From Bradyrhizobium septentrionale (GTDB lineage: Bacteria > Pseudomonadota > Alphaproteobacteria > Rhizobiales > Xanthobacteraceae): a stretch of DNA of 64,000 nt. Both the position numbers and the translations under genes were made by a program. How positions within the stretch are numbered: the stretch's first letter is position 1; each line of letters starts with the position of its first letter. Under the pieces are notes generated by a model. The model had not been told where the DNA came from. It ran no database searches and saw only the letters and a program-made list of their open reading frames with translations. Location: positions 5,598,501 to 5,662,500 of the forward strand of contig NZ_CP088285.1 in NCBI RefSeq assembly GCF_011516645.4. Reading direction: 5' to 3'. Shown here in pieces: positions 12-12,041 of the stretch.

Positions 12-764
12 ATGACCAACACCATCGAGGCCCTCGACAGCGGCTACCGTTTCATGCCCGGCGTCAGTCAATATTCCTGCGGCGTCAGTGCGCTGCCGGG
101 TTTTGCGATCGAGCGCGTCTGGTTCTCTCAACCGGTGCCGCTGAAGGCGGGCTTTGACAGGATCGCGGACATCCTCAAGTCCGCGGGCCGTCCGCTCACT
201 GCATTCGGCGCCTGCGAATTGCGCTCGCCGGCGCCGTTCACCGAAGACGGGTTCAAGGCCTTCAACGCGATCTACATCAAGACGCTGATCGAATGGGGCG
301 TGATGCGCGACGGCGTCAATCCGGTGGCGCGCAGCAATGTCTGCCCGAAGCTCGATCCGCCCGCCGAGCCGTCGTTCCACGCCTTCTCCTACACGGTGCC
401 GGCTGCGAAGGACGCACCGTCGAGCTTCGTCGTGGCCGGCAGCGGCGAGTCGGTCGAGGGCAAGGCCAATTATCGCGATCACACCGTGGCCCTCGGCGAC
501 ACCAGTCCGGCCGGCATCCTGGCGAAAGCGAAATTCGTGGCTAACGAGATGGAACGCCGGATGAGCGCGTTCGACGGCACCTGGCAGGACACCACCGCCG
601 TGCAACTCTATACCGTCCACGACGCCTATCCCGTGCTCGAAAGCGAGCTCGGCCACCGCGGCGTGCTACGCAACGGCTTGACCTGGCATTTCGACCGGCC
701 GCCGGTGATTGGGCTTGACTTCGAAATGGATTGCCGGCGCGTGCATCGCGAGCGCGTGGTGTGA
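12..764 (+). CDS. RidA/YjgF-fold protein, cytosolic, substrate unknown
   Basis: 250-residue protein that I place in the RidA/YjgF-like superfamily by its overall pattern; it is about twice the length of a single RidA domain, so it may hold two related halves. No signal peptide or membrane segment is visible. The usual RidA active-site arginine in a Pro-Ala-Arg context near the C-terminus is not present (the region reads VLRNGLTWHF), so imine deaminase activity cannot be assumed. A GAGG ribosome site lies just before the ATG. It heads a run with an amine oxidase, a cytochrome c and a true RidA, which suggests handling of a reactive amine or imine product. Function is inference from neighbours. 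Confidence 0.6.
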   Translation: MTNTIEALDSGYRFMPGVSQYSCGVSALPGFAIERVWFSQPVPLKAGFDRIADILKSAGRPLTAFGACELRSPAPFTEDGFKAFNAIYIKTLIEWGVMRDGVNPVARSNVCPKLDPPAEPSFHAFSYTVPAAKDAPSSFVVAGSGESVEGKANYRDHTVALGDTSPAGILAKAKFVANEMERRMSAFDGTWQDTTAVQLYTVHDAYPVLESELGHRGVLRNGLTWHFDRPPVIGLDFEMDCRRVHRERVV

Positions 765-888
765 TGCATCGATCACCTGCTGCATCAAAAGCGCGTGTGG
801 GTGCATGGCGAAGCGTGCGGCTTTCCTTGACACGGATCGCATCAACCGTTTCCCTTCGCCATCGAAATCAGCGGCTGGGTGAACGCGG

Positions 889-2481
889 GTGCAGAACGAA
901 TCTGTGATCAGGCGGCGGGATCTGCTCGCGCTGATCGGCACCATCGCCGGCAGCTCGGCGATGTATCACGCGATGACGAGCCTCGGCTTCGCATCCGAGT
1001 CTGCCTACAAGGGGCCGCTCAAGCTCGCCGGCGATGTGAAGGGCGCTTCGGTGCTGATCCTCGGCGCCGGGCTTGCCGGCATGACGGCGGCGCTGGAACT
1101 GCGCAAGGCCGGCTACAAGGTCCAGATCCTCGAATTCAACAACCGGCCCGGTGGCCGCAACTGGTCGATCCGCGGCGGCGACAGCTTTACCGAGCTCGGC
1201 GGCTTCAAGCAGACCTGCCAGTTCGAGCAGGGGCTCTATCTCAATCCCGGCCCGTGGCGAATTCCCTATCATCACCGCGCGCTGCTCGATTACTGCCGCC
1301 GGCTCAACGTGACGCTGGAACCCTTCCTCCAGCTCAACCACAACGCCTATCTGCACGCGACGCGCGCATTCGACGGCAAGCCGCAACGCTTCCGCAGCAT
1401 CAAGGCGGACTTCCAGGGCCAGGTGTCGGAGCTGCTCGCGAAAGTCACCCAGCAGGGCAGGCTCGACGAGGTCGTCACCAAGGAAGATCAGGAGATATTG
1501 CTGCAGGCGATGCGCGACTGGGGCGCGCTGGACCGCGACTACAAGTACAATGCCAACCTCGTCTCCGCCGAGTTCCGCGGCTATACGCGCGATCCCGGCG
1601 GCGGCCTGATGGACGATCCGCTGCCGAGCGACCCGATTTCACTGCAGGAGCTGTTGCGGTCACGGATGTGGCGCTATCTGCAGAGCTATGCGCGCTACGA
1701 CTTCCAGACCACCATGTTCCAGCCGGTCGGCGGCATGGACATGATCGGCAAGGCGTTCGCGCGCGAGGTCGGCGATCTCATCCGCTACAACGCCAAGGTC
1801 ACGCAGATCCAGCAGAATGGCTCCGGCGTCACCGTGAGCTACGTCGACACGGGCGGTCCACCCACGGTGCAGCAGGCGACCGCCGACTGGTGCATCTGCA
1901 CCATCCCGCTGCCGATCCTGAGCCAGCTGCCGGTCGACGTCAGCGGGCCGATGAAGAATGCGATCGATTCCGTATCCTATGCCGCCTCGGTGAAGATCGG
2001 GCTGCAGTTCAAGCGGCGGTTCTGGGAGGAGGATGAGGCGATCTATGGCGGCATCAGCTACACTGACCTGCCGATCCGGCAGATCGGCTATCCGAATTAT
2101 GGCTTCAACCGTGGCGGACGCGGTGTCCTGCTCGGCGGCTACATGTATGGGGGCGCCAATTCCTTCGAGTTCACGGCGATGACGCCGGCCGAGCGCGTCG
2201 TCAGTGCCGTCGAGTTCGGCGCCAAGATCCATCCGCAGTACAAAAGCGAATTCGAGAACGGCGTCGCGGTGGCCTGGCATCGTGTGCCGTTCACGCTCGG
2301 CTGTGCCGGCGAATGGACCGACGCCGGGCGCGCGCAGCATTACCGCAATCTCTGCCAGATCGACGGCCGCATCGCGCTGGCGGGTGAGCATGCCTCGCAA
2401 CTGCCGGCCTGGCAGGAAGGCGCGATCCTGTCCGCGCTCGACGCCATCAGCCGATTGCACGAACGCGTGGTGAAGACGTGA
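889..2481 (+). CDS. Tat-exported flavin-containing amine oxidase/dehydrogenase
   Basis: 530-residue FAD-dependent amine oxidase of the monoamine oxidase/NicA2 superfamily. The GTG start leads into an RRRDLLAL twin-arginine motif and a hydrophobic stretch, so the folded flavoprotein is probably exported. The dinucleotide-binding fold is plain at residues about 55-85 (ILGAGLAGMTAALELRKAGY, then RPGGR). The C-terminal flavin motif reads LAGEHASQLPAWQEGAILSA. The family oxidises amines to imines; some members, such as NicA2, pass electrons to a cytochrome c instead of oxygen. The next gene, overlapping by one base, encodes a cytochrome c, which fits a dehydrogenase. The amine substrate cannot be told from sequence. 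Confidence 0.85.
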   Translation: MQNESVIRRRDLLALIGTIAGSSAMYHAMTSLGFASESAYKGPLKLAGDVKGASVLILGAGLAGMTAALELRKAGYKVQILEFNNRPGGRNWSIRGGDSFTELGGFKQTCQFEQGLYLNPGPWRIPYHHRALLDYCRRLNVTLEPFLQLNHNAYLHATRAFDGKPQRFRSIKADFQGQVSELLAKVTQQGRLDEVVTKEDQEILLQAMRDWGALDRDYKYNANLVSAEFRGYTRDPGGGLMDDPLPSDPISLQELLRSRMWRYLQSYARYDFQTTMFQPVGGMDMIGKAFAREVGDLIRYNAKVTQIQQNGSGVTVSYVDTGGPPTVQQATADWCICTIPLPILSQLPVDVSGPMKNAIDSVSYAASVKIGLQFKRRFWEEDEAIYGGISYTDLPIRQIGYPNYGFNRGGRGVLLGGYMYGGANSFEFTAMTPAERVVSAVEFGAKIHPQYKSEFENGVAVAWHRVPFTLGCAGEWTDAGRAQHYRNLCQIDGRIALAGEHASQLPAWQEGAILSALDAISRLHERVVKT

Positions 2482-2894
2482 TGATGCGTATCAGCATATC
2501 GGCGGTTGCCGCGTTGACGCTGCTGTCCGCCACCGTGGCGGTGGGGCAGGATAACGCCACGGGCAAGCGCACTTTCTCCTCGGGCTACCGCTTCGTGGAG
2601 ATGACCGGCGAGGAGCTGTTCGGCAATGTCTGCCAGGGCTGCCACATGCCGGATGCCACAGGCGCAAGCGGCGCCGGCACTTATCCGGCACTCGCCAGCA
2701 ACAAGAATCTCGAATCCGCCAGCTATCCGATCTTCCTTGTCATCAATGGCCGCCGCGGCATGCCGGGGTTCGGCGACATGATGACCGATGGTCAGGTCGC
2801 CGCCGTTGTGAATTATCTGCGGACGCACTTCGGCAACACCTATCAGGACGCGGTGACGGCCAAGGATGTCCAGGACGCCCGCCCTAACAAATAA
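2481..2894 (+). CDS. exported class I-like cytochrome c, probable electron acceptor for the amine dehydrogenase
   Basis: 137-residue protein with a Sec signal peptide (hydrophobic residues about 6-20, ending near VAVGQ) and one CQGCH haem-attachment motif at about residue 50. A downstream Met in a GMPGFGDMM context is a candidate axial ligand. Its ATG overlaps the stop of the upstream amine oxidase gene (TGATG), so the two are translationally coupled. I infer that it takes electrons from the flavoprotein in the periplasm and passes them to the respiratory chain. An alternative GTG start lies one codon earlier. Confidence 0.85.
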   Translation: MMRISISAVAALTLLSATVAVGQDNATGKRTFSSGYRFVEMTGEELFGNVCQGCHMPDATGASGAGTYPALASNKNLESASYPIFLVINGRRGMPGFGDMMTDGQVAAVVNYLRTHFGNTYQDAVTAKDVQDARPNK

Positions 2895-2909
2895 TTCGGG
2901 GAGAGTTTG

Positions 2910-3398
2910 ATGAAAGTCACAGGTATCCTGTTGGGCGCCGCGCTGTCGGTGGTGGCAAACGCTGCCTCGGCTGACGTGATCAGGCATCCGATTCCCAATT
3001 CGACGTTCCCGATCGCGCAGGCGGTCACCGTCACCGGCAACACCACGACCGTCTATGTCAGCGGCCAGGTGCCGCCGGTCGCCAACAAGGATGCCGATCC
3101 GTCGAGCCCGCAGGCCTATGGCGACACCAAGACCCAGACCGTCGGCGTGCTCAATCGCATCAAGGGCATCCTCGAAGGCCAGGGGCTTGGCATGGGCGAC
3201 GTCGTCAAGATGCAGGTGTTCCTGGTGCACAACGCATCCGCACCGATGGACTTCAAGGCCTTCATGGAGGGCTACACCCAGTTCTTCGGCGGCAGCCAGC
3301 CGAACCTGCCGGCCCGCTCGGTGGTCGGCGTCGCGGCGCTCGCCAATCCCGGCTTCCTGGTCGAGATCGAGGTGATCGCGGCCAAGGATGCCAAATAG
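2910..3398 (+). CDS. exported RidA-family imine/enamine deaminase
   Basis: 162-residue RidA (YjgF/YER057c/UK114) protein with a clear Sec signal peptide (residues 1-21, cleavage near ANAASA). The RidA active-site pattern is intact: PARSVVGVAAL with the catalytic Arg, followed by LVEIEVIA with the conserved Glu. RidA proteins hydrolyse reactive imines/enamines to carbonyl plus ammonia, and are usually cytosolic; an exported one next to an exported amine dehydrogenase suggests it hydrolyses the imine product in the periplasm. GGGGAG lies ahead of the ATG, 12 bases after the cytochrome gene. Confidence 0.85.
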   Translation: MKVTGILLGAALSVVANAASADVIRHPIPNSTFPIAQAVTVTGNTTTVYVSGQVPPVANKDADPSSPQAYGDTKTQTVGVLNRIKGILEGQGLGMGDVVKMQVFLVHNASAPMDFKAFMEGYTQFFGGSQPNLPARSVVGVAALANPGFLVEIEVIAAKDAK

Positions 3399-3527
3399 GG
3401 ACTCCAAATGGCGTGCGCGAAACTGCGGAGCATGCGCGCGGAAATTGAAGGGCTCGCCGTCTTGCCAAAGCGCGTGTCGCCTGTCTGAATTCGTCTCCAC
3501 TGAGGCGGTGGAATCCGGGAGAGCACG

Positions 3528-4946
3528 ATGTCGCACAAGGCCCCAAACATGGCTCGAACGCTGCGGCTCGCAGCAGCACTTGGTCCGGTCCTGCTCGCAA
3601 CCGGTGCCACGGCGCAGGGGCTGACCGAGCAGCAGCAGTTTGCCCGCGGCATCTATCAGGAACTGGTCGAGATCAACACCACCACCGCGACCGGCGATAC
3701 CCAGAAGGCGGCGGAGGCGATGGGCGCGCGGCTCCGCGCGGCGGGCTTCCCTGAGGCCGACGTGCACGTGTTCTCGCCGGCGCCGCGCAAGGGCAATCTG
3801 GTGGCGCGGCTGCCCGGCTCCGGCGCGCGCAAGCCGATCCTCCTGGTTGCCCATCTCGACGTCGTCCCAGCCCTCCGTGAGGACTGGACGGTCGATCCGT
3901 TCAAGCTCACCGAGCAGGACGGCTATTTCTACGGCCGTGGCTCTAGCGACGACAAGTTCATGGCGTCGGCCTTCATCACCAACCTGATCCGCTACAAGAA
4001 GGAGGGCTACAAGCCCGACCGCGACATCATCGTCGCACTCGAGACCGACGAGGAGATCCTCGATGCCAACGGCCTCGGCATGCAGTGGCTGATCAAGAAC
4101 CACCGTGACCTGATCGACGCCGAATTCGCGCTGAACGAAGGCGGCGGCGTCGGCCTCAAGAACGGCAAGGCGATCCGCAACAGCGTGCAGACCAGCGAGA
4201 AGGTTTCGGTCGGCTACCAGCTCACGGTGAAGGATCGCGGCGGCCACTCATCGCTGCCGCGCAAGGACAACGCGATCTACCACCTCGCCGAAGGCCTCGT
4301 CCGGCTCTCCAATTACAGCTTCCCGATGAATCTCAACGAGACCACGCGAATCTATTTCGCGAAGATCGCCGAGGTCGACAAGTCGCATGCCGACGACATC
4401 AAGGCGATCCTGGCGCCGCAGCCCGAACCGGCGGCGCTGGCGCGATTGTCGGAAAATCCCGGCTACAATGCGCAGCTTCGCACCACCTGCGTCGCGACGA
4501 TGCTCGAGGGCGGCCACGCCATCAACGCGCTGCCGCAGCTTGCGACCGCCAAGGTGAACTGCCGGATCCTGCCCGGCGAGCCGGTCGACGGCGTCCAGGC
4601 GACGATCGAGCGCGTGCTCGCCGACAAGCAGATCGAGGTGACCCCGACCGGCAAGGCCGTGCTGAGCCCGCCGTCGCCGCTGAATGAGGAGGTGATGGGA
4701 TCGATCGAGAAGCTGTCGAAGGAGTTCTGGCCGAATGCCGAAATCGTCCCTACCATGAGCACCGGCGCGACCGACGGCAGCTATCTGCGCAATGCGGGGA
4801 TTCCGACCTATGGTCATTCCGGGCTCGGCGCCGATGTCGATGACAACCGGAACCATGGCAAGGACGAGCGCGTGCTGGTCAAGTCGTTCTACGAGGGCGA
4901 GGAGTATCTCTATCGCCTGGTCAAGATGCTCGCCGGCGGAAAATGA
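3528..4946 (+). CDS. exported M20-family metallopeptidase
   Basis: 472-residue M20/M25/M40 zinc peptidase with an N-terminal signal sequence (about residues 1-29, ending ATGATAQ). Metal ligands and catalytic residues are visible in order: HLDVVP, the GSSDDKF Asp, the ETDEE pair, the NEGGG site and a late HGKDERV His. The dimerisation domain lies between the two halves (about residues 210-330). The family removes amino acids from peptides or acyl groups from N-acyl amino acids. It follows the amine-oxidising genes after a 129-base gap with its own GGGAG site, so it might release the amine or amino acid that they oxidise; that link is inference. Confidence 0.85.
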   Translation: MSHKAPNMARTLRLAAALGPVLLATGATAQGLTEQQQFARGIYQELVEINTTTATGDTQKAAEAMGARLRAAGFPEADVHVFSPAPRKGNLVARLPGSGARKPILLVAHLDVVPALREDWTVDPFKLTEQDGYFYGRGSSDDKFMASAFITNLIRYKKEGYKPDRDIIVALETDEEILDANGLGMQWLIKNHRDLIDAEFALNEGGGVGLKNGKAIRNSVQTSEKVSVGYQLTVKDRGGHSSLPRKDNAIYHLAEGLVRLSNYSFPMNLNETTRIYFAKIAEVDKSHADDIKAILAPQPEPAALARLSENPGYNAQLRTTCVATMLEGGHAINALPQLATAKVNCRILPGEPVDGVQATIERVLADKQIEVTPTGKAVLSPPSPLNEEVMGSIEKLSKEFWPNAEIVPTMSTGATDGSYLRNAGIPTYGHSGLGADVDDNRNHGKDERVLVKSFYEGEEYLYRLVKMLAGGK

Positions 4947-5764
4947 TGGCTGACGGCAAGACAAGGCTGCGGGTGGCGGTCGCCGGCCTCGGCGCGATCG
5001 GCACTGACGTCGTCAAGGCGCTCGATCAGGGCATCGAGGGATTGATGCTGGTTGCGGTGTCGGCAAACAGTCCGGACAAGCACAGCGGCTGGGTTGCGGA
5101 GCTCAACTCTGCGCCGAAGCTGGTGCCGATCGACGGGCTCGCCGATGTCGCCGACATCGTGGTCGAGTGCGCGCCGAGCAAGCTGGTGCGCTCGATCGTG
5201 GCCCCGGTGGTCGCGCGCGGCAAGACCGCGGTCGTGCTCAGCGTCGGCGCGCTGCTGCAGAACGAGGACTTGGTCGATCTCGCCCGGGCGCATGGCGGCC
5301 AGATCATCGTGCCGACCGGCGCGCTGATCGGGCTCGATGCGGTGACTGCGGCGGCGATCGGGACCATTCATTCGGCCAAGCTGGTGACGCGGAAGCCCGT
5401 CGCGGGGCTCGTCGGCGCGCCGCATCTGGTCGAGAACAACATTCAGATCGAGGGGATCACCGAGCCGCTGCGCATCTTCGAGGGCAGCGCGCGCGACGCC
5501 GCCAAGGGCTTTCCGGCCAATCTCAACGTCGCCGTGGCATTGTCACTGGCCGGCATCGGGCCCGACCGCACAAGGGTGGAAATCTGGGCCGACCCGACAG
5601 TGACGCGCAACACCCACCGGATCGAAGTCGATTCCGACTCGGCGCGGTTCTCGATGATGATCGAGAACATCCCCTCGGAGAACCCGAAGACCGGCCGCAT
5701 CACTGCGCTGTCGGTGATCGCCTGCCTGCGCAAGCTGCGCGCGTCCTTGCGGATCGGAACGTGA
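4943..5764 (+). CDS. L-aspartate dehydrogenase
   Basis: 273-residue NAD(P)-dependent L-aspartate dehydrogenase. The N-terminal Rossmann fold has VAGLGAIGTDVV at about residues 11-22, and the C-terminal signature NTHRIEVDSDSARFS...ENIPSENPKTGRITALS is typical of the family. It converts aspartate to iminoaspartate/oxaloacetate; iminoaspartate can feed quinolinate and NAD synthesis. The ATG overlaps the peptidase stop, and its own stop overlaps the next start by one base, so it is in a tight transcription unit with a nicotinamidase. This pairing favours a role in NAD supply rather than nitrogen catabolism, but both are possible. Confidence 0.85.
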   Translation: MMADGKTRLRVAVAGLGAIGTDVVKALDQGIEGLMLVAVSANSPDKHSGWVAELNSAPKLVPIDGLADVADIVVECAPSKLVRSIVAPVVARGKTAVVLSVGALLQNEDLVDLARAHGGQIIVPTGALIGLDAVTAAAIGTIHSAKLVTRKPVAGLVGAPHLVENNIQIEGITEPLRIFEGSARDAAKGFPANLNVAVALSLAGIGPDRTRVEIWADPTVTRNTHRIEVDSDSARFSMMIENIPSENPKTGRITALSVIACLRKLRASLRIGT

Positions 5765-6384: not shown

Positions 6385-6473
6385 GCGGAGCCGGCTAACG
6401 GCGAAAACCGTTGTTTTGACTGGCCTTTTGTTCTAATCCCCAGCCGTTGATGATGACGCGCAGCGGAGATTTC

Positions 6474-7460
6474 GTGTCGGGACAGGTTTTGCGGATAGGG
6501 ACGCGCAAGAGCGCGATGGCGCTTGCGCAAACGGACGAGGTCGCGCGGCTGCTGCGCGCCTCGGCGCCGGACCTTGCCGTCGACATCGTCAAGTTCGAGA
6601 CCCGCGGCGACCAGGACCAGACCAGCAAGCTGTTGCGTCACGGCGGCAAGGGTGGCGCGTTCGTCGCCGAGATCCGCGAGGCGATGCGATCAGGCACGCT
6701 GCAGGCCGCGATGCATTCGCTGAAGGACGTGCCGGGAAATGAGGAGACGCCGGGTCTGGTCCTCGCCGCGATGCTGGCGCGCGATGCGGCCAACGATTCG
6801 CTCGTGTTGCGGCCGGGTCTGACGCTGGATGCGTTTCGCGCCTCGCGCGGGAAAGGCTTCATGATCGGCACCAACGCTGTGCGCCGCGCCGCCTATCTGC
6901 GCAGGCTGTTTCCTGAAGCGACGGTGATTCATTTCCGCGGCGCCGCCGACACGCGAATTGCAAAACTCGATCGCGGGGCCAAGCAGCGGCTGCCCGATGG
7001 CGGCGAGGTGGGGCCGGCGGATGCGCTGGTGATGGCGCGCTCCGGCCTCGAGCGCATCGGCATGACCGCGCGCATCGCACATGACTTCTCGGTCGATGAG
7101 ATGCTCCCCGCGGTCGGCCAGGGCGTCGTCGCGGTCGAATGCGTCGAGACCGACTGGGCGACGCGTGCGCGGCTTGCCGGGATCGACAACGCGCCGTCGC
7201 GGCTCGCCGCCGAGGCCGAGCGCGAGGTGCTGTGGGTGCTCAACGGCCACTGCAATTCGCCGATCGCCGGCCACGCCACGCTTGCGGGGGCTGAGATGAC
7301 GCTGCGTGCCTCGGTGCTCGACGAGGCCGGGGCCGGCTTCATCGAGGTGACGCGGCGCGGGCCTTCGGACCGGCCGCGCGAACTCGGCCGCGCCGTCGGC
7401 ATGGAGCTATTGGACAAGGGCGCCGCCGAGATCATCGCCCGCACCCGGGTCGAGGAATAG
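6474..7460 (+). CDS. divergent hydroxymethylbilane synthase (HemC family)
   Basis: Member of the porphobilinogen deaminase family, which links four porphobilinogens into hydroxymethylbilane. The catalytic Asp is in HSLKDVP and a Cys suited to hold the dipyrromethane cofactor is in NGHCNSPIAG. Two departures are visible: the usual RGN-x-(E/D/G)TR substrate-binding motif is RGAADTR, and about ten extra residues (around LPDGGEVG) follow it. GGAG at 6465-6468 favours the GTG start at 6474; ATGs at 6450 and 6453 are also in frame. The neighbours are NAD genes, not other hem genes, so this is probably a paralogue of a housekeeping HemC elsewhere. It converges with the next gene with only 8 bases between. 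Confidence 0.75.
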   Translation: MSGQVLRIGTRKSAMALAQTDEVARLLRASAPDLAVDIVKFETRGDQDQTSKLLRHGGKGGAFVAEIREAMRSGTLQAAMHSLKDVPGNEETPGLVLAAMLARDAANDSLVLRPGLTLDAFRASRGKGFMIGTNAVRRAAYLRRLFPEATVIHFRGAADTRIAKLDRGAKQRLPDGGEVGPADALVMARSGLERIGMTARIAHDFSVDEMLPAVGQGVVAVECVETDWATRARLAGIDNAPSRLAAEAEREVLWVLNGHCNSPIAGHATLAGAEMTLRASVLDEAGAGFIEVTRRGPSDRPRELGRAVGMELLDKGAAEIIARTRVEE

Positions 7461-7468
7461 CGGCGCTG

Positions 7469-8158
7469 CTACGTCCGCAGCGGCCAGCTGCCGATGATGC
7501 GGAAGCGGGATGCGCTGTCGGCCTGCTTGAACAGCGCGATGCGGTCGACCGCGAGCGTCGTGAGCTCGATCGCGGCGAACCGCTCGCGCAGCCGCGCCAT
7601 GATCGGGCCGCGCCGCTCGTCGCTCAGCCGCCCGGTCAGCGTCATGTGGAAGCGGAATTCCTCCATGACGTAGGGATAGCCCCAGCGGTCGAGATAGTCG
7701 CGCTGTCGCTCCGTGAGCCGTTCGGGTCTGCGTCGCGCGCGATCTTCCTGCGTGAGTGGCGCACGGAACGCGTCGAATTCGGTGACGCAATCGGCGGCGA
7801 GCTGCTGGAGTTCGTCGGAGAGCTTCGCCGGGATCACGGCGATGAAGCCGCTGATGGCATCGACAACAGGCTCGATCAGGGGAATGCGCCGCGCGCGGCC
7901 TGCGAAGGCGGCACAGGCGTCGAGAAGCTCGGCCTCGCTCCTGCCGTCCGCAAGCGCAGTCGGCGCCTTCAGCGTGGCGTGAAAACCGTATTTGCGCGGG
8001 TCCTCGGTGACCTCGCGCCAGTCGGGCGCGACGCCATCGGGAAACCGCAGCTCGTCGCCCGACACGGCGTCATAGCCGAGCAGCGTCGAACCGAAGCGGT
8101 GCAGGGCGCTGTCAGGTGACGGCGCATAGTAGATCGCGTAGCGCGGAGTGGGGGCCAT
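7469..8158 (-). CDS. DUF1045 phosphonate-locus protein (2H phosphoesterase-like)
   Basis: 229-residue protein of the DUF1045 family that recurs in alphaproteobacterial phn loci. Two His-x-Thr motifs (GFHATLKAP near residue 58 and FRFHMTLTGRL near residue 168) match the 2H phosphoesterase pattern, so it may act on a cyclic phosphate such as the 5-phosphoribosyl 1,2-cyclic phosphate released by C-P lyase. No phnP gene is visible in the window, which makes this a candidate replacement; that is inference. It is the last gene of a minus-strand trio with phnM2 and the hexapeptide transferase. Confidence 0.75.
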   Translation of the reverse strand: MAPTPRYAIYYAPSPDSALHRFGSTLLGYDAVSGDELRFPDGVAPDWREVTEDPRKYGFHATLKAPTALADGRSEAELLDACAAFAGRARRIPLIEPVVDAISGFIAVIPAKLSDELQQLAADCVTEFDAFRAPLTQEDRARRRPERLTERQRDYLDRWGYPYVMEEFRFHMTLTGRLSDERRGPIMARLRERFAAIELTTLAVDRIALFKQADSASRFRIIGSWPLRT

Positions 8159-8178
8159 GGCAGCAGAATAAAGCCTGA

Positions 8179-9351
8179 CTATGCCGCCGCAACCGTCTTG
8201 CGCGGCGCGAGCGCGTGAACGAAGCAGCTTGCATCCGCCAGATGCACCAGCCGTCCGGCTGATATCACGGCGACGACACGCGGCCGCAGCGGCACCTTGT
8301 CGTCGACGATGACGATATCGGCACGGCGGCCGGCGGCGAGCACGCCGCGGTCGGCGAGCCCCGCGGCGCGCGCCGGCGCAGACGAGATCAGGTCCCAGGC
8401 CCTGGCGAGCGGCAGGATGCCGTCGGCAACGAGGCGGAACGCCGCGAGCAGCTGCGCCGGATAATAATAGTCCGACGCCAGCACCGAGCAGAGGCCTTTT
8501 GCGATCATGTCGGATGCCTTGGTCCAGCCGGTGTGGCTGCCGCCGCGCACCACATTGGGCGCACCGAACACGATGAAGTCATCGGCATCGGCGGCATCGC
8601 GCGCGGTCTCCTCGTTGACGGGGAATTCGGCGATCGCCGCGCCCAGCGCGCGAAACTCCTGACGCATCGCCGGGCTGTTGTCGTCGTGCGACAGCATGCG
8701 GATGTCGGCCGCGCGCGCCGCGGCGGCCAGCCTTGCGATCGAGGCCGGCACCTCGGGACGGCGCGCGACGACCCGGTCGATCAGCTCGTTGAAGGCCTCG
8801 AGCGAAAGCCCGGCGCGCTCGGCCGACTGGTTGCGCTTCTTCGGTTTGACATTGCTGTGGTCGTTGAAGGCGAACAGGTCGATGCGGCCTTCGGTGAGCC
8901 ATTGAATGATCTCGGCTTCGGCGTCGAGATTGTGGGTCTCGTGACGCAGGTGGAAGCGCGTATCGGCGGCGAGAAGCGGCCGCAGCGCCTCGATCGCATC
9001 GAGCAGCTTGCGCGCATTCTCCGCGCTGCGCAGGCCGGGCTCCCACGACCAGGTCGTGCCATGGAACACGGTGGTGATGCCGTTGGCGATCGCCTGCCGG
9101 TCGCTATCGATGAGCGCGACGTCGGTCGGGAAGTCGACGCCCGGGCGCGGCATCATCTGCCGCTCGAACGCATCGCCGTGCAGATCGATGATGCCGGGCA
9201 ATACCAAGAGCCCGCCGGCATTGATGTGAAGCGCGGCGCGGCCTTGTTCGGCGTCGAGCGCGCCGATGTCGCGGCCTGCGGTCCGCAGCGAGGTCTCGAC
9301 CAATCCGCCGTCAACCAGCGTGCGCCCGCCCTCGATGAAAATGTCCGTCAC
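8179..9351 (-). CDS. phnM: second PhnM-type amidohydrolase
   Basis: 390-residue member of the PhnM family (alpha-D-ribose 1-methylphosphonate 5-triphosphate diphosphatase). Metal-site signatures are present: [11 protein letters not shown]...PRPGVDFP near residue 57, HLRHETHN mid-protein, LSHDDN and the [14 protein letters not shown] block. It is clearly diverged from the other PhnM of this window (19406-20560), where the first motif reads ELHTDHLE...PRPKV. Its start overlaps the stop of the upstream hexapeptide transferase by four bases. It may serve a different phosphonate substrate or be a partly redundant copy. Confidence 0.85.
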
Positions 9352-10013
9352 GATGCGGCACTCCGTTGTTTGGCCTGTGCTTGGGATACGGCCTCGGCCT
9401 CATACTTGTCGAGGAATTCCTCCACCGCGAGCTTGCGAAAGTCGGGCAGGACACGGCGAAGTGTCTCATGGTCCCAGTCCCACCACGCCAGCGCAGCGAG
9501 ACGATCCGCTGTTGTCTCGGAGAAGCGCCGCTTCACCAGGCGCGCCGGATTACCGGCAACGATGGTGTGCGCGGGCACATCCTTGGTCACGATCGCGCCG
9601 GCGGCAACAACAGCGCCGGTTCCGATGTTGCGGCCCGGCAGCAGGATCGCGCCGTGACCGATCCAGACGTCATGGCCGATATGCACGTGATGCGCACGTC
9701 GCCAGTTGAAGAAGTCGGTGTCGTCGCTCTCGCCGGGAAAATAAGCGCTGGCGCGGTAGGTGAAATGCGCCTGTGTCGCGCGATGCATCGGGTGGTTGCC
9801 GGGATTGATCCGGGTCATCGCCGCGATCGAGCAGAACTTGCCGATCGAGGTGTAGGTGATCTGGCTGTCGTTCACGACGTAGGAATAGTCGTCCATGCTG
9901 ACTTCAAGCAGGATCGTGCGCGCACCGACCTCGGTATATTTGCCGAGCTTGCTCTCGCGGACCGACGCAGTCGGGTCGAGGGTCGGCACAACCGAGAGTG
10001 TTTTTCCGGCCAT
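9348..10013 (-). CDS. phosphonate-locus hexapeptide-repeat transferase
   Basis: 221-residue left-handed beta-helix (hexapeptide) transferase of the type often found in phn clusters, related to chloramphenicol/virginiamycin acetyltransferases. The repeats run from about residue 45 to 165, with [20 protein letters not shown] and [22 protein letters not shown] as the clearest turns, followed by an alpha-helical tail. It probably acylates a phosphonate or intermediate, a role like that of PhnO; the acceptor is not known. First gene of a minus-strand operon, reading away from phnC, with a triple Pho box about 66 bases upstream. Confidence 0.8.
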
Positions 10014-10078
10014 CAGGGCCTCCGCAAATCTTGCAAATCTTTGGCTTCCGGGAGATGCGCGCTCGTCATCGGGATGCT

Positions 10079-10107
10079 TGATGACAACATCATGACGTCA
10101 CGATGAC
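10079..10107 (-). promoter_or_regulatory. triple Pho-box-like direct repeat for the minus-strand phn operon
   Basis: ATGAC occurs at 10081, 10092 and 10103, an exact 11-base period; on the minus strand this is GTCAT three times. PhoB-type sites are GTCA-containing direct repeats with 11-base spacing, so this fits one and a half Pho boxes pointing toward the hexapeptide transferase start at 10013. Spacing is read directly; binding is inference. Confidence 0.65.
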
Positions 10108-10148
10108 GGCAAGAGAGCGGGTGTGGACGATCGCCGCACCGCAACGTC

Positions 10149-10166
10149 GCGTCACATAACTGTAAA
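10149..10166 (+). promoter_or_regulatory. Pho box upstream of phnC
   Basis: GCGTCACATAACTGTAAA matches the enterobacterial Pho-box consensus (two CTGTCA-type units, 11-base period) at about 13 of 18 positions. A GATAGC hexamer at 10175-10180 lies where a -10 element would be expected for a Pho promoter, and phnC begins at 10213. Confidence 0.6.
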
Positions 10167-10212
10167 ACACCGGGGATAGCGATGGCCCAACACGGCGCGG
10201 TTGGAGCATTAC

Positions 10213-11027
10213 ATGCTGGTGGTGGAAGGTTTGACGTGCCGGTTCGGCACAAAAGCCGCAGTCGACAATGCGTCCTTCTCGATCGCGCCGGGCAGCTTTG
10301 TCGGTGTGATCGGCCGCTCCGGTGCCGGGAAGTCGACCCTGTTGCGGATGATCAACCGTCTCGCCGATCCGACCTCCGGCCGTATCCTGTTCGAAGGCAC
10401 CGATGTCACCGCGCTGCGCGGCAAGGCGCTGCGGCAATGGCGGGCGCGCTCGGCGATGATCTTCCAGCAATTCAATCTGGTTGGCGGCTTGATGTGCTGA
10501 CCAACGTACTGATGGGCCGGTTGGCCCAGATCCCGTCCTGGCGTTCGCTGGCGCAAGCCTGGCCGGAGCAGGACAGGGCGCTCGCGATGTCCGCACTCGA
10601 TCAGTTCGACATCGCTCAACTCGCGGCGCAGCGCGCCGACCAGCTTTCGGGCGGCCAGCAGCAACGTGTCGCGATCGCTCGCGCGCTGGTGCAGGAGCCC
10701 GACATCATCCTCGCCGACGAGCCGATCGCCTCGCTCGATCCGCGCAACACCAGGATCGTGATGGATGCGTTGCTGCGCATCAACAAGCATTTCGGCATCA
10801 CGGTGCTCTGCAACCTGCACTCGCTCGACCTGGCGCGGACCTATTGCGATCGCCTGGTCGGCATGGCGGCGGGTCGCGTGGTGTTCGATGGCGCCCCGGC
10901 GGCGCTGACCGACCATATCGCCCGCGAGCTCTACGACCTCGAGGCCAACGACGTCATGGGCGGCGCGCCAATGCCCGCGTCCGACGGCGCGACCGTTCCG
11001 GCACTCGGCACCGCCGCCGCGGCCTGA
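10213..11027 (+). pseudogene. phnC: phosphonate ABC transporter ATPase PhnC, frameshifted
   Basis: ATPase of the phosphonate importer. The first frame runs from an ATG with GGAG six bases upstream through Walker A (GRSGAGKST, residues 34-42) and the Q-loop FQQFNLVG, then hits a stop at 10498-10500. The remaining protein continues in the next frame from about 10485, starting [12 protein letters not shown], with signature LSGGQQQRV, Walker B IILADEP and the switch His region. Restoring one C in the GGC-GGC segment at 10484-10488 would rejoin both parts into an ordinary PhnC of about 270 residues. As written, the protein is cut after about 95 residues. No slippery run suited to programmed frameshifting is present. 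It is either a real inactivating deletion or a sequencing error. Confidence 0.85.
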
Positions 11028-11052
11028 GCGTCGCGCGTTTTCCAATCTGAAT

Positions 11053-11073
11053 GGCCGGGCATTTTGCCCGGCC
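11053..11073 (+). terminator. stem-loop between phnC and phnD
   Basis: Perfect inverted repeat: GGCCGGGCA, three-base loop TTT, TGCCCGGCC. It has no T-run after it, so it is more likely an mRNA-stabilising or processing hairpin 5' of phnD than a full terminator. Its GGCCGGGC stem is repeated after phnD. Confidence 0.6.
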
Positions 11074-11105
11074 AACAGGTGCAACCATAATAAAGAGGGG
11101 TAGTC

Positions 11106-12041
11106 ATGTTTACTCGTCGCATCGTTCTGGCCGGCGTCGCCGCGCTGGCGCTCACCGGTTCCGCATCCGCGCAGGAGTGGAAGGCAAAATATCCGGAGCT
11201 TACCTTCGCGGTGGTGCCGGCCGAGAACGCCTCCGGCGTCACCGAGCGCTGGACGCCGTTCGTGGCGTATCTGTCGAAGGAGCTCGGCGTGAAGGTCACG
11301 CTGCGCATCGCCAATGACTACGCCGCCGTCATCGAAGGTCAACGCGCCGGCAACATCCAGATCGCCAGCTACGGCTCGGCCTCGTTCGCGCGCGCCCGCC
11401 TGACCGGCGTCAAGTCCGACGCGTTCGCCAACGACATCAACGCCGACGGTTCGACCGGCTACTACTCGGTGTTCTTCGTCAAGGCCTCGAGCCCCTACAA
11501 GAGCGTCGACGATCTGAAGGGCAAGAACCTCGGCCTGGTCGATCCGAACTCGACCTCGGGCAACAACGTGCCGCGCTTCGAGCTCGACAAGATGGGCATC
11601 GCCGACGCCGACACCTATTTCGGCAAGGTCGTGTTCACCGGCAGCCACGAGAACGCGGTGCTGGCGCTGGCGCAGGGCACCGTCGACATGGCCGCCAACC
11701 AGTGGACCAGCGACGACGATTCGACACTCGCGCAGATGCTGACCAAGGGCATGCTGAAGAACGCCGACGGCTCGGCGATGAAGAAGGACGATTTCCGCAT
11801 CATCCACAAGTCGGCGCCGATCATCAACGGACCCTATGCCTACAACGCCGATCTGCCCGAGGACCTGAAGGCCGCGATCGCGAAGGCCTTCTTCGAAGCT
11901 CCGACCAAGGACAAGGCCGCGTTCGACCGTCTCTCCGACGGCCAGAAGAAGGGCTTCCATCCCGCCACCACCAAGGACTGGGATGGCACGATCGAGCTGA
12001 TCAAGTTCGTCGACGCTCTGCGCAAGAAGAAGGCGAGCTGA
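11106..12041 (+). CDS. phnD: phosphonate ABC transporter substrate-binding protein PhnD
   Basis: 311-residue periplasmic binding protein with a Sec signal peptide (residues 1-22, ending SASAQ). It captures phosphonates for the PhnCDE importer. Family features include the AVVPAENASG start of the mature domain, SYGSASFARA, the central VDPNSTSGNNVPRFEL loop that lines the ligand site, and VFTGSHENAVLALAQGTVD. It lies between the phnC pseudogene and phnE1 in the usual order and is flanked on both sides by a strong hairpin with the same stem. Confidence 0.93.
   Translation: MFTRRIVLAGVAALALTGSASAQEWKAKYPELTFAVVPAENASGVTERWTPFVAYLSKELGVKVTLRIANDYAAVIEGQRAGNIQIASYGSASFARARLTGVKSDAFANDINADGSTGYYSVFFVKASSPYKSVDDLKGKNLGLVDPNSTSGNNVPRFELDKMGIADADTYFGKVVFTGSHENAVLALAQGTVDMAANQWTSDDDSTLAQMLTKGMLKNADGSAMKKDDFRIIHKSAPIINGPYAYNADLPEDLKAAIAKAFFEAPTKDKAAFDRLSDGQKKGFHPATTKDWDGTIELIKFVDALRKKKAS

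Follow-up and report, generated by a model that had tools for sequence, protein, structure and literature searches.

A candidate extracytoplasmic L-amino-acid dehydrogenase module with a predicted exported Rid3 protein in Bradyrhizobium septentrionale

Does a row of four genes for apparently exported proteins in Bradyrhizobium septentrionale form a pathway that works outside the cytoplasm, and which of its members belong together? The genes lie near the left end of the window, by which we mean the whole stretch of 64,000 nucleotides analysed here (contig NZ_CP088285.1, positions 5,598,501 to 5,662,500). They follow one another, as an initial annotation of this DNA had said, lie on the + strand and encode a flavin adenine dinucleotide (FAD) oxidase, a cytochrome c, a Rid protein and an M20-family hydrolase. 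The same annotation had credited all four with export signals, and this holds as far as motif and hydropathy go: the oxidase has a twin-arginine translocation (Tat) motif and the other three have hydrophobic, signal-like N-termini. Taking together the families, active-site residues, signal-like N-termini, gene order, partners, joint loss of signals and M20 co-occurrence that sequence comparison establishes, we consider it probable that the block encodes an extracytoplasmic L-amino-acid dehydrogenase module, with electrons passing to the cytochrome c and an exported Rid3 protein clearing the imine. The features of the block are:

889 to 2481, + strand: FAD oxidase of the L-amino acid oxidase family (PDB entry 2jae, 323.6 bits)
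889 to 999, + strand: predicted twin-arginine signal region of the oxidase, about residues 1 to 37 (from sequence and comparison)
2478 to 2894, + strand: one-haem cytochrome c with a Sec-type N-terminus (from Pfam and motif)
2631 to 2645, + strand: CXXCH haem-binding motif of the cytochrome, CQGCH (from sequence)
2910 to 3398, + strand: Rid3-type putative imine hydrolase with a Sec signal (ATG 2910 preferred; TTG 2907 is the start given by the tool)
3528 to 4946, + strand: M20-family metallohydrolase of the PRK09133 subfamily with a signal-like N-terminus (from a profile match)

A scan for promoters and terminators and an Rfam search of the window gave no signal above chance, so the limits of the operon are drawn from gene overlaps and comparison. 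The order oxidase-cytochrome-Rid recurs in alpha-, beta- and gamma-proteobacterial records and is therefore not due to chance.

Distribution of the oxidase

At E <= 1e-60 the oxidase is found in 36 of 146 Bradyrhizobium genomes, in 8 of 397 genomes of the host order, 19 of 337 of the host class, 27 of 398 of the host phylum and 5 of 321 of another class, all as overlapping samples; a genus that is probably Pseudomonas has it in 64 of 249 genomes at E <= 1e-40. Plasmid records with the oxidase number 36 (E <= 1e-60), and 13 plasmid regions were inspected. The named loci are the best 80 of 218 confirmed in one contig scan. From 228 oxidases fetched, 221 were clustered at 80% identity into 76 representatives, on which the tree was built; this grouping masks recent copies of the oxidase. 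Signal peptides were assigned by eye, from motif and hydropathy only, and 9 of the 228 loci, truncated or lacking a parsed signal region, were excluded from the signal table. Correlations of oxidase and partner distances have no control for vertical inheritance and are read for co-inheritance only.

Five oxidases about 90% identical to that of the window (L043, L045, L049, L083 and L143) have no adjacent cytochrome, Rid or M20 gene, and such lone copies keep an intact Tat motif wherever the start is included. On large plasmids of nodule isolates of Microvirga, Rhizobium and Mesorhizobium (L243, L246, L247, L248) the oxidase-cytochrome pair has genes for a transposase, a recombinase or a group II intron in its vicinity.

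The flavoenzyme and its likely substrate class

The oxidase begins with MQNESVIRRRDLLALIGTIAGSSAMYHAMTSLGFA, in which a twin-arginine motif (RRRDLL, residues 8 to 13) is followed by a hydrophobic stretch. Its closest relative is the R. opacus L-amino acid oxidase (LAAO; PDB 2jae, 323.6 bits over query residues 46 to 528), to which it is homologous over the full length, whereas putrescine oxidase, LSD1 and other amine oxidases align to the FAD-binding stretch only (among the best 60 of 104 matches). Arg124 is kept in all 76 representatives and Tyr418 in 74, the other two having Phe. In snake LAAO an Arg/Tyr pair holds the substrate carboxylate (PMC6149928; published articles are cited from excerpts, except where their main text is named). 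Arg124 and Tyr418, as read from the alignments to PDB hits, appear to be the equivalents of this pair. Their conservation and the LAAO kinship make an L-amino acid the likely substrate of the window oxidase, in place of the amine proposed by the initial annotation; a simple amine was discarded as substrate class on these same two grounds. Judged by motif and hydropathy, the flavoenzyme with its Tat signal and the exported cytochrome c encoded next to it show the combination of the NicA2/Pnao type.

The cytochrome c partner

The cytochrome gene starts at GTG 2478 or ATG 2481 and thus overlaps the oxidase stop codon (2479 to 2481), as had been claimed for it together with a single haem; the product has one CXXCH motif and matches Pfam Cytochrome_CBB3 at 4.6e-12. 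Its nearest solved relatives, all weak (best 2e-06), are haem domains from subunits of periplasmic dehydrogenases for alcohol, fructose and glucose. Throughout the clade of the window a one-haem cytochrome, recognised as a CXXCH frame, adjoins the oxidase (49 of 49 representatives), and all 49 frames also match a profile built from the window cytochrome. A gamma-proteobacterial clade (L128, L130 and L134, 3 of 3) has instead a two-haem cytochrome of about 200 amino acids, encoded between oxidase and Rid. On the tree of 76 the cytochrome state changes 2 times and the presence of Rid 17 times. On plasmid pDSHI02 of Dinoroseobacter shibae (L251:297-7030) oxidase and cytochrome are preceded on the same strand by coxB, ctaD, a hypothetical gene and one for cytochrome oxidase assembly. 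In Deinococcus the cytochrome gene lies upstream of the oxidase. Two loci (L114 and L120) have a gene for a three-haem cytochrome (488 and 510 amino acids) directly upstream of the oxidase in addition to a one-haem gene downstream.

The Rid protein and its matched export signal

The best start of the Rid gene is ATG 2910, giving the N-terminus MKVTGILLGAALSVVANAASA. Its active site is intact, as first annotated: an Arg at residue 137 (counted from TTG 2907) is kept in 47 of 47 aligned relatives and a conserved Glu in 46, and 46 of the 47 have Ile in a column that we read as the Tyr position of most Rid proteins. A kept catalytic-type Arg with Tyr replaced by Ile is the published signature of Rid3 (PMC4433059); the window Rid has both traits, which refines its subtype to Rid3. 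Its top two PDB matches, PSPTO_3006 (9bka) and PFL_1385 (9bkc), are both Rid3 proteins that hydrolyse LAAO-made imines in vitro (PMC5619798). A separate homologue search with Rid, covering the best 120 of 5605 matches, was not used.

Rid carries an export signal, with N-termini read by eye, in 45 of the 47 representatives that have it. The signal reads as lipoprotein type in L111, L113 and L118, and in a Comamonas locus (L250) a lipoprotein signal lies upstream of the annotated Rid start. The two proteins without a signal (L136 and L183) are sister rows of the tree (support 100) in a Pseudomonas-type clade, among signal-bearing neighbours. Both arginines remain in the oxidase of this clade, but charges have entered the hydrophobic stretch, as in VGGEQAAKDALAAL against VGGYSAAVSALGAL. 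The pattern was followed through 63 loci of the probable Pseudomonas genus, out of 67 match rows (G1075, G1094 and two G1001 fragments were left out; rows L151 and L152 were assigned by hand from their N-termini). A charged oxidase core goes with a signal-less Rid in 28 loci and an uncharged core with a Rid signal in 33; the exceptions are L171, with a single Asp and a Rid signal, and L206, which has no Rid. The measure used takes the charged residues D, E and K within the h-region core and was picked after the sequences had been seen; the uncharged run of the Tat h-region and a 16-residue hydropathy window gave no clean separation of the groups. PSPTO_3006 falls in the signal-less branch and PFL_1385 in the signal-bearing one.

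The Rid signal thus tracks the oxidase signal, joint loss included, a change to be expected if the hydrolase must share the compartment of the imine. Loss of signals in homologues had been named at the outset as an outcome that would refute the proposal: it occurs in one clade, jointly for oxidase and Rid. A plasmid of the Gram-positive Metabacillus (L253:4986-8249), with a twin-arginine oxidase, a Sec-signal Rid, tatA and tatC in a row and no cytochrome, is an independent case of an oxidase with an exported Rid. Its tatA-tatC genes beside oxidase and Rid may be a dedicated export pair.

In L132 and L135 a receptor gene stands in front of Rid, which is about 5 kb away from the start of the oxidase. 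Rid was not found in the 5 kb flanks of the oxidase on plasmids of R. tropici, R. gallicum, M. huakuii, D. shibae and D. radiodurans. Receptors of one TonB-dependent family are encoded no more than about 6 kb from the oxidase in 14 of the 76 representatives, a fifteenth match being weak, and on a Sphingomonas plasmid a receptor gene of this family separates oxidase and Rid. This proximity would fit a substrate bigger than a free amino acid, but receptor genes are common.

The M20 hydrolase

The hydrophobic N-terminus of the M20 protein ends in ATGATAQG. H109, D111, D141, E175, E176 and H443, invariant in 20 sequences, are residues that we take to be the metal ligands (HxD, D, EE, H). Foldseek with the predicted model (predicted local distance difference test score, pLDDT, 71.8) returns DapE, ArgE, carnosinase and carboxypeptidase folds alike, a spread that does not narrow the range of substrates. 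Besides the window protein, 17 of 19 M20 proteins look signal-bearing from their N-termini; those of L061 and L064 look frame-disturbed.

The association of M20 with the oxidase, also part of the initial annotation, is borne out within Bradyrhizobium. Close M20 homologues (at least 69% identical, E <= 1e-150) occur in 34 of the 146 genomes, all of them among the 36 with the oxidase; the two oxidase genomes without M20 are G052 and G097, and none of the 110 oxidase-free genomes has M20 at this cut-off, counts that are uncorrected for relatedness. In 33 of the 34 genomes the two genes share a contig and lie at most about 6 kb apart, G072 with its separate contigs being the exception. Gain and loss could therefore be physical, and linkage could explain the co-occurrence. 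In three genomes of another branch, TonB receptor and PepSY genes stand between Rid and M20, one of them with a further gene for a solute-binding protein (Pfam was run on L240 only), and M20 stays in the region.

Close M20 relatives are almost confined to Bradyrhizobium and near relatives. In Mesorhizobium L078 the trio is accompanied by an M20 of 38% identity that has no clear signal. Two Microvirga plasmids have the order M20-oxidase-cytochrome-Rid with an M20 of 33% identity, whose signal-like N-terminus is readable in L249 and not in L243; L128 and L227 have M20 genes with signal-like N-termini near the oxidase on the opposite strand. Linkage of the four genes across genomes, which had been suggested as a check, therefore gives a divided answer: the cytochrome adjoins the oxidase throughout the clade (49 of 49), while Rid is missing beside 21 of the 49 and close M20 proteins are nearly limited to the genus.

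Proposed pathway and alternative explanations

In the pathway that we favour, the Tat-exported flavoenzyme would oxidise an L-amino acid to a 2-imino acid outside the cytoplasm. Its reduced FAD would be reoxidised by the co-encoded exported cytochrome c, in single-electron steps, and not by O2, and the cytochrome would pass the electrons to a haem-copper terminal oxidase. The exported Rid3 would act in the same compartment, converting the imino acid to a 2-oxo acid and ammonium. In Bradyrhizobium the exported M20 hydrolase would probably free the amino acid from peptides or N-acyl amino acids. The substrate class, the electron acceptor and imine hydrolysis in vivo are what we infer from the comparisons; the natural substrate and the role of M20 are speculative. 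A wider statement is held more tentatively, at a little short of even chances: Rid3 would be exported wherever the oxidase is and returned to the cytoplasm with it in one lineage, and thus be chiefly the dedicated partner of this oxidase family; the whole would be a widespread amino-acid respiration module; and in Bradyrhizobium an exported M20 would release the amino acid outside the cytoplasm.

Several observations weigh against these readings. The calls of export signals are based on motif and hydropathy alone, and the parts of the open-licence PMC literature covered yielded no measured substrate and no measured reactivity with O2 or cytochrome for the clade of the window. As many as 24 of the 76 representatives have no adjacent cytochrome, Tat-motif relatives among them, and 4 of the 80 named loci (L043, L045, L049, L083), like the further copy L143, consist of a lone oxidase without cytochrome. 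The joint loss of the oxidase and Rid signals is confined to a single clade and so amounts to a single event. Of the 49 representatives with the cytochrome, 21 have no Rid beside the oxidase (for 3 of the 21 there is less than 1.5 kb of sequence downstream); the Rid of L064 stands 2.7 kb beyond the cytochrome, and that of L115 is part of a second cluster in opposite orientation. From this absence and the 17 changes on the tree it follows that Rid is optional, a frequent and not an obligate partner of the oxidase. The linkage of M20 to the oxidase may be hitch-hiking.

It is unlikely that the flavoenzyme works in the periplasm as a genuine L-amino acid oxidase, consuming O2 and producing H2O2, with the cytochrome serving, for instance, peroxide removal or general respiration. 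Its characterised relatives from R. opacus and snake venom are named oxidases (PMC6149928), some relatives have a Tat motif but lack the cytochrome, and the Tat-only enzymes of a 2025 study were mostly fast with O2 (PMC12224317). In that study, however, an adjacent cytochrome gene was the stronger predictor of a dehydrogenase; in the window's clade the cytochrome is constant, in L128, L130 and L134 it is of another type and not absent, and in Dinoroseobacter cytochrome oxidase genes adjoin the flavoenzyme gene. Another alternative is an amine dehydrogenase like NicA2 or Pnao, whose amine substrate would have no carboxylate; such enzymes have the same Tat signal and adjacent exported cytochrome (PMC12224317). 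This we regard as very improbable, for the protein groups with L-amino acid oxidases and keeps the carboxylate-binding Arg and Tyr, and its matches to amine oxidases (best 60 of 104) stop at the FAD-binding stretch.

For Rid the alternative is a non-catalytic oxidase subunit, on the model of M-beta in Chlamydomonas, whose periplasmic LAAO-RidA complex contains a RidA termed non-catalytic (PMC5053998). The retention of Arg in 47 of 47 and of Glu in 46 of 47 relatives, and imine hydrolysis in vitro by two close relatives, leave this improbable and favour the exported Rid3 as a hydrolase. The place of M20 is much less settled, and there is a substantial chance, somewhat smaller than that of the opposite, that it is a passenger sharing an island with the oxidase and no common pathway. 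The short distance in 33 of 34 genomes, the absence of a close M20 from most other trio-bearing taxa and the diverged, apparently signal-less M20 of Mesorhizobium L078 point that way. Participation of M20 is favoured by its presence in 34 of 36 oxidase genomes as against 0 of 110 oxidase-free ones, by its persistence in the region in the three genomes where an insertion splits it from Rid, and by the M20 genes beside the oxidase in L128 and L227 (opposite strand) and on the two Microvirga plasmids (33% identity).

Relation to described systems

The initial annotation did not know the block as a described system, yet a cluster of its core type was published in 2016. In Gluconacetobacter diazotrophicus PAL5, lao forms a cluster together with cccA and ridA (Rodrigues et al. 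2016, PMC5053998), the same three predicted products in the same order as the trio of the window. Tn5 insertions in lao abolish production of indole-3-acetate, of which about 5% is left in mutants of cytochrome maturation that the article cites. The authors predict a Tat signal on the oxidase and suggest that it is periplasmic and helped by cytochrome and RidA; they also report the order lao-cccA-ridA as preserved in Xanthomonas and Caulobacter (PMC5053998). Our named Xanthomonas loci (among the best 80 of 218) show the trio order at 63 to 64% oxidase identity. The Gluconacetobacter cluster, set beside the window by description, differs in that the excerpts of the article give neither a RidA signal nor an M20 gene and assign the system a role in making auxin from tryptophan (PMC5053998).

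Many Tat-exported flavin amine enzymes with an adjacent cytochrome c are dehydrogenases, according to the 2025 study (PMC12224317). NicA2 and Pnao resemble the window pair in having a Tat flavoenzyme with an adjacent exported cytochrome c, and the electron route is likely the same. That set, however, was gathered by BLAST with NicA2, whereas the clade of the window groups with L-amino acid oxidases; the main text of the study has no mention of L-amino acid, amino acid oxidase, RidA or imine (PMC12224317). Chlamydomonas LAO1/LAO2 likewise is an exported L-amino acid oxidase with a RidA partner (PMC5053998, PMC10805672), but it is eukaryotic and described as H2O2-producing, and no cytochrome partner is mentioned in the excerpts. 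As to Rid, genes for RidA and sometimes Rid3 cluster with those for FAD amine oxidases (Niehaus 2015, PMC4433059), and the in vivo substrates of Rid1 to Rid3 were called unknown in that article. Genes closely similar to those of PFL_1385 and PSPTO_3006 stand beside an oxidase (L195 and L136, respectively) without an adjacent cytochrome, and the PSPTO_3006 branch, unlike the window Rid, lacks an export signal; the main text on both proteins does not mention a signal (PMC5619798).

Since the lao-cccA-ridA cluster, cytochrome-using flavin enzymes and the clustering of Rid genes are already published, the core of the module is known in outline: oxidase, cytochrome and Rid are a known kind of module, here joined by M20. 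The parts of the open-licence PMC literature covered yielded no account of matched export of Rid, joint loss of signals, a two-haem variant, an M20 companion or a Tat-linked Gram-positive form. The matched export of the Rid helper is the new and testable point. That oxidase, cytochrome and Rid are exported partners, the idea of the initial annotation, gains credibility from the family-wide comparison, in which the cytochrome is constant (49 of 49) and the Rid signal follows that of the oxidase.

An oxidase that recurs next to Rid3 and has an export signal to match offers Rid3 a definite partner that can be put to the test, and does so in a compartment that is unexpected in the usual view of Rid proteins. 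If the proposal is right, an L-amino-acid branch would be added to the cytochrome-using flavin amine dehydrogenases, soil and nodule bacteria could use amino acids for respiration with no need to take them up, and there would be a possible mechanism for the auxin phenotype of mutants in Gluconacetobacter.

Flanking genes

Two neighbouring genes frame the block:

12 to 764, + strand: CnbZ-type deaminase gene, left neighbour outside the four-gene block (NCBIfam NF049982, 386.4 bits)
4943 to 5764, + strand: L-aspartate dehydrogenase (AspDH)-type gene, right neighbour, whose start overlaps the M20 stop

The four genes had originally been given the span 12 to 4946, which includes the CnbZ gene as a fifth. 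The segment 12 to 764 was rejected as a member of the block because it belongs to the CnbZ family and its counterpart stands beside AspDH in an oxidase-free genome. In that genome (G025, L238:7001-8599) CnbZ is followed directly by AspDH, and the four genes of the window lie exactly between these two. Among five oxidase-free genomes examined, CnbZ and AspDH are adjacent in this one and linked in another order in one, and three have no CnbZ within 7 kb. The AspDH, PncA and hemC-type genes downstream were also set aside as parts of the module, being beside the trio in only part of the Bradyrhizobium loci. A structure search found no solved relative of the CnbZ-type protein, and its fold prediction (pLDDT 46.6) was not used.

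The CnbZ-AspDH pair of L238 lies downstream of an ATP-binding cassette transporter of branched-chain amino-acid type and is taken to be a separate pathway. The transporter genes that precede CnbZ in L054, L055 and L238 were found neither in the 10 kb upstream of the window (L150:1-10000) nor in 12 other oxidase-bearing loci compared. Further right in the window, 6447 to 7460 is a hydroxymethylbilane synthase-type gene (TIGR00212, 238.5 bits), and 7469 to 12041 holds genes that by their sequences resemble a cluster for phosphonate use (putative phnM, phnC and phnD-like).

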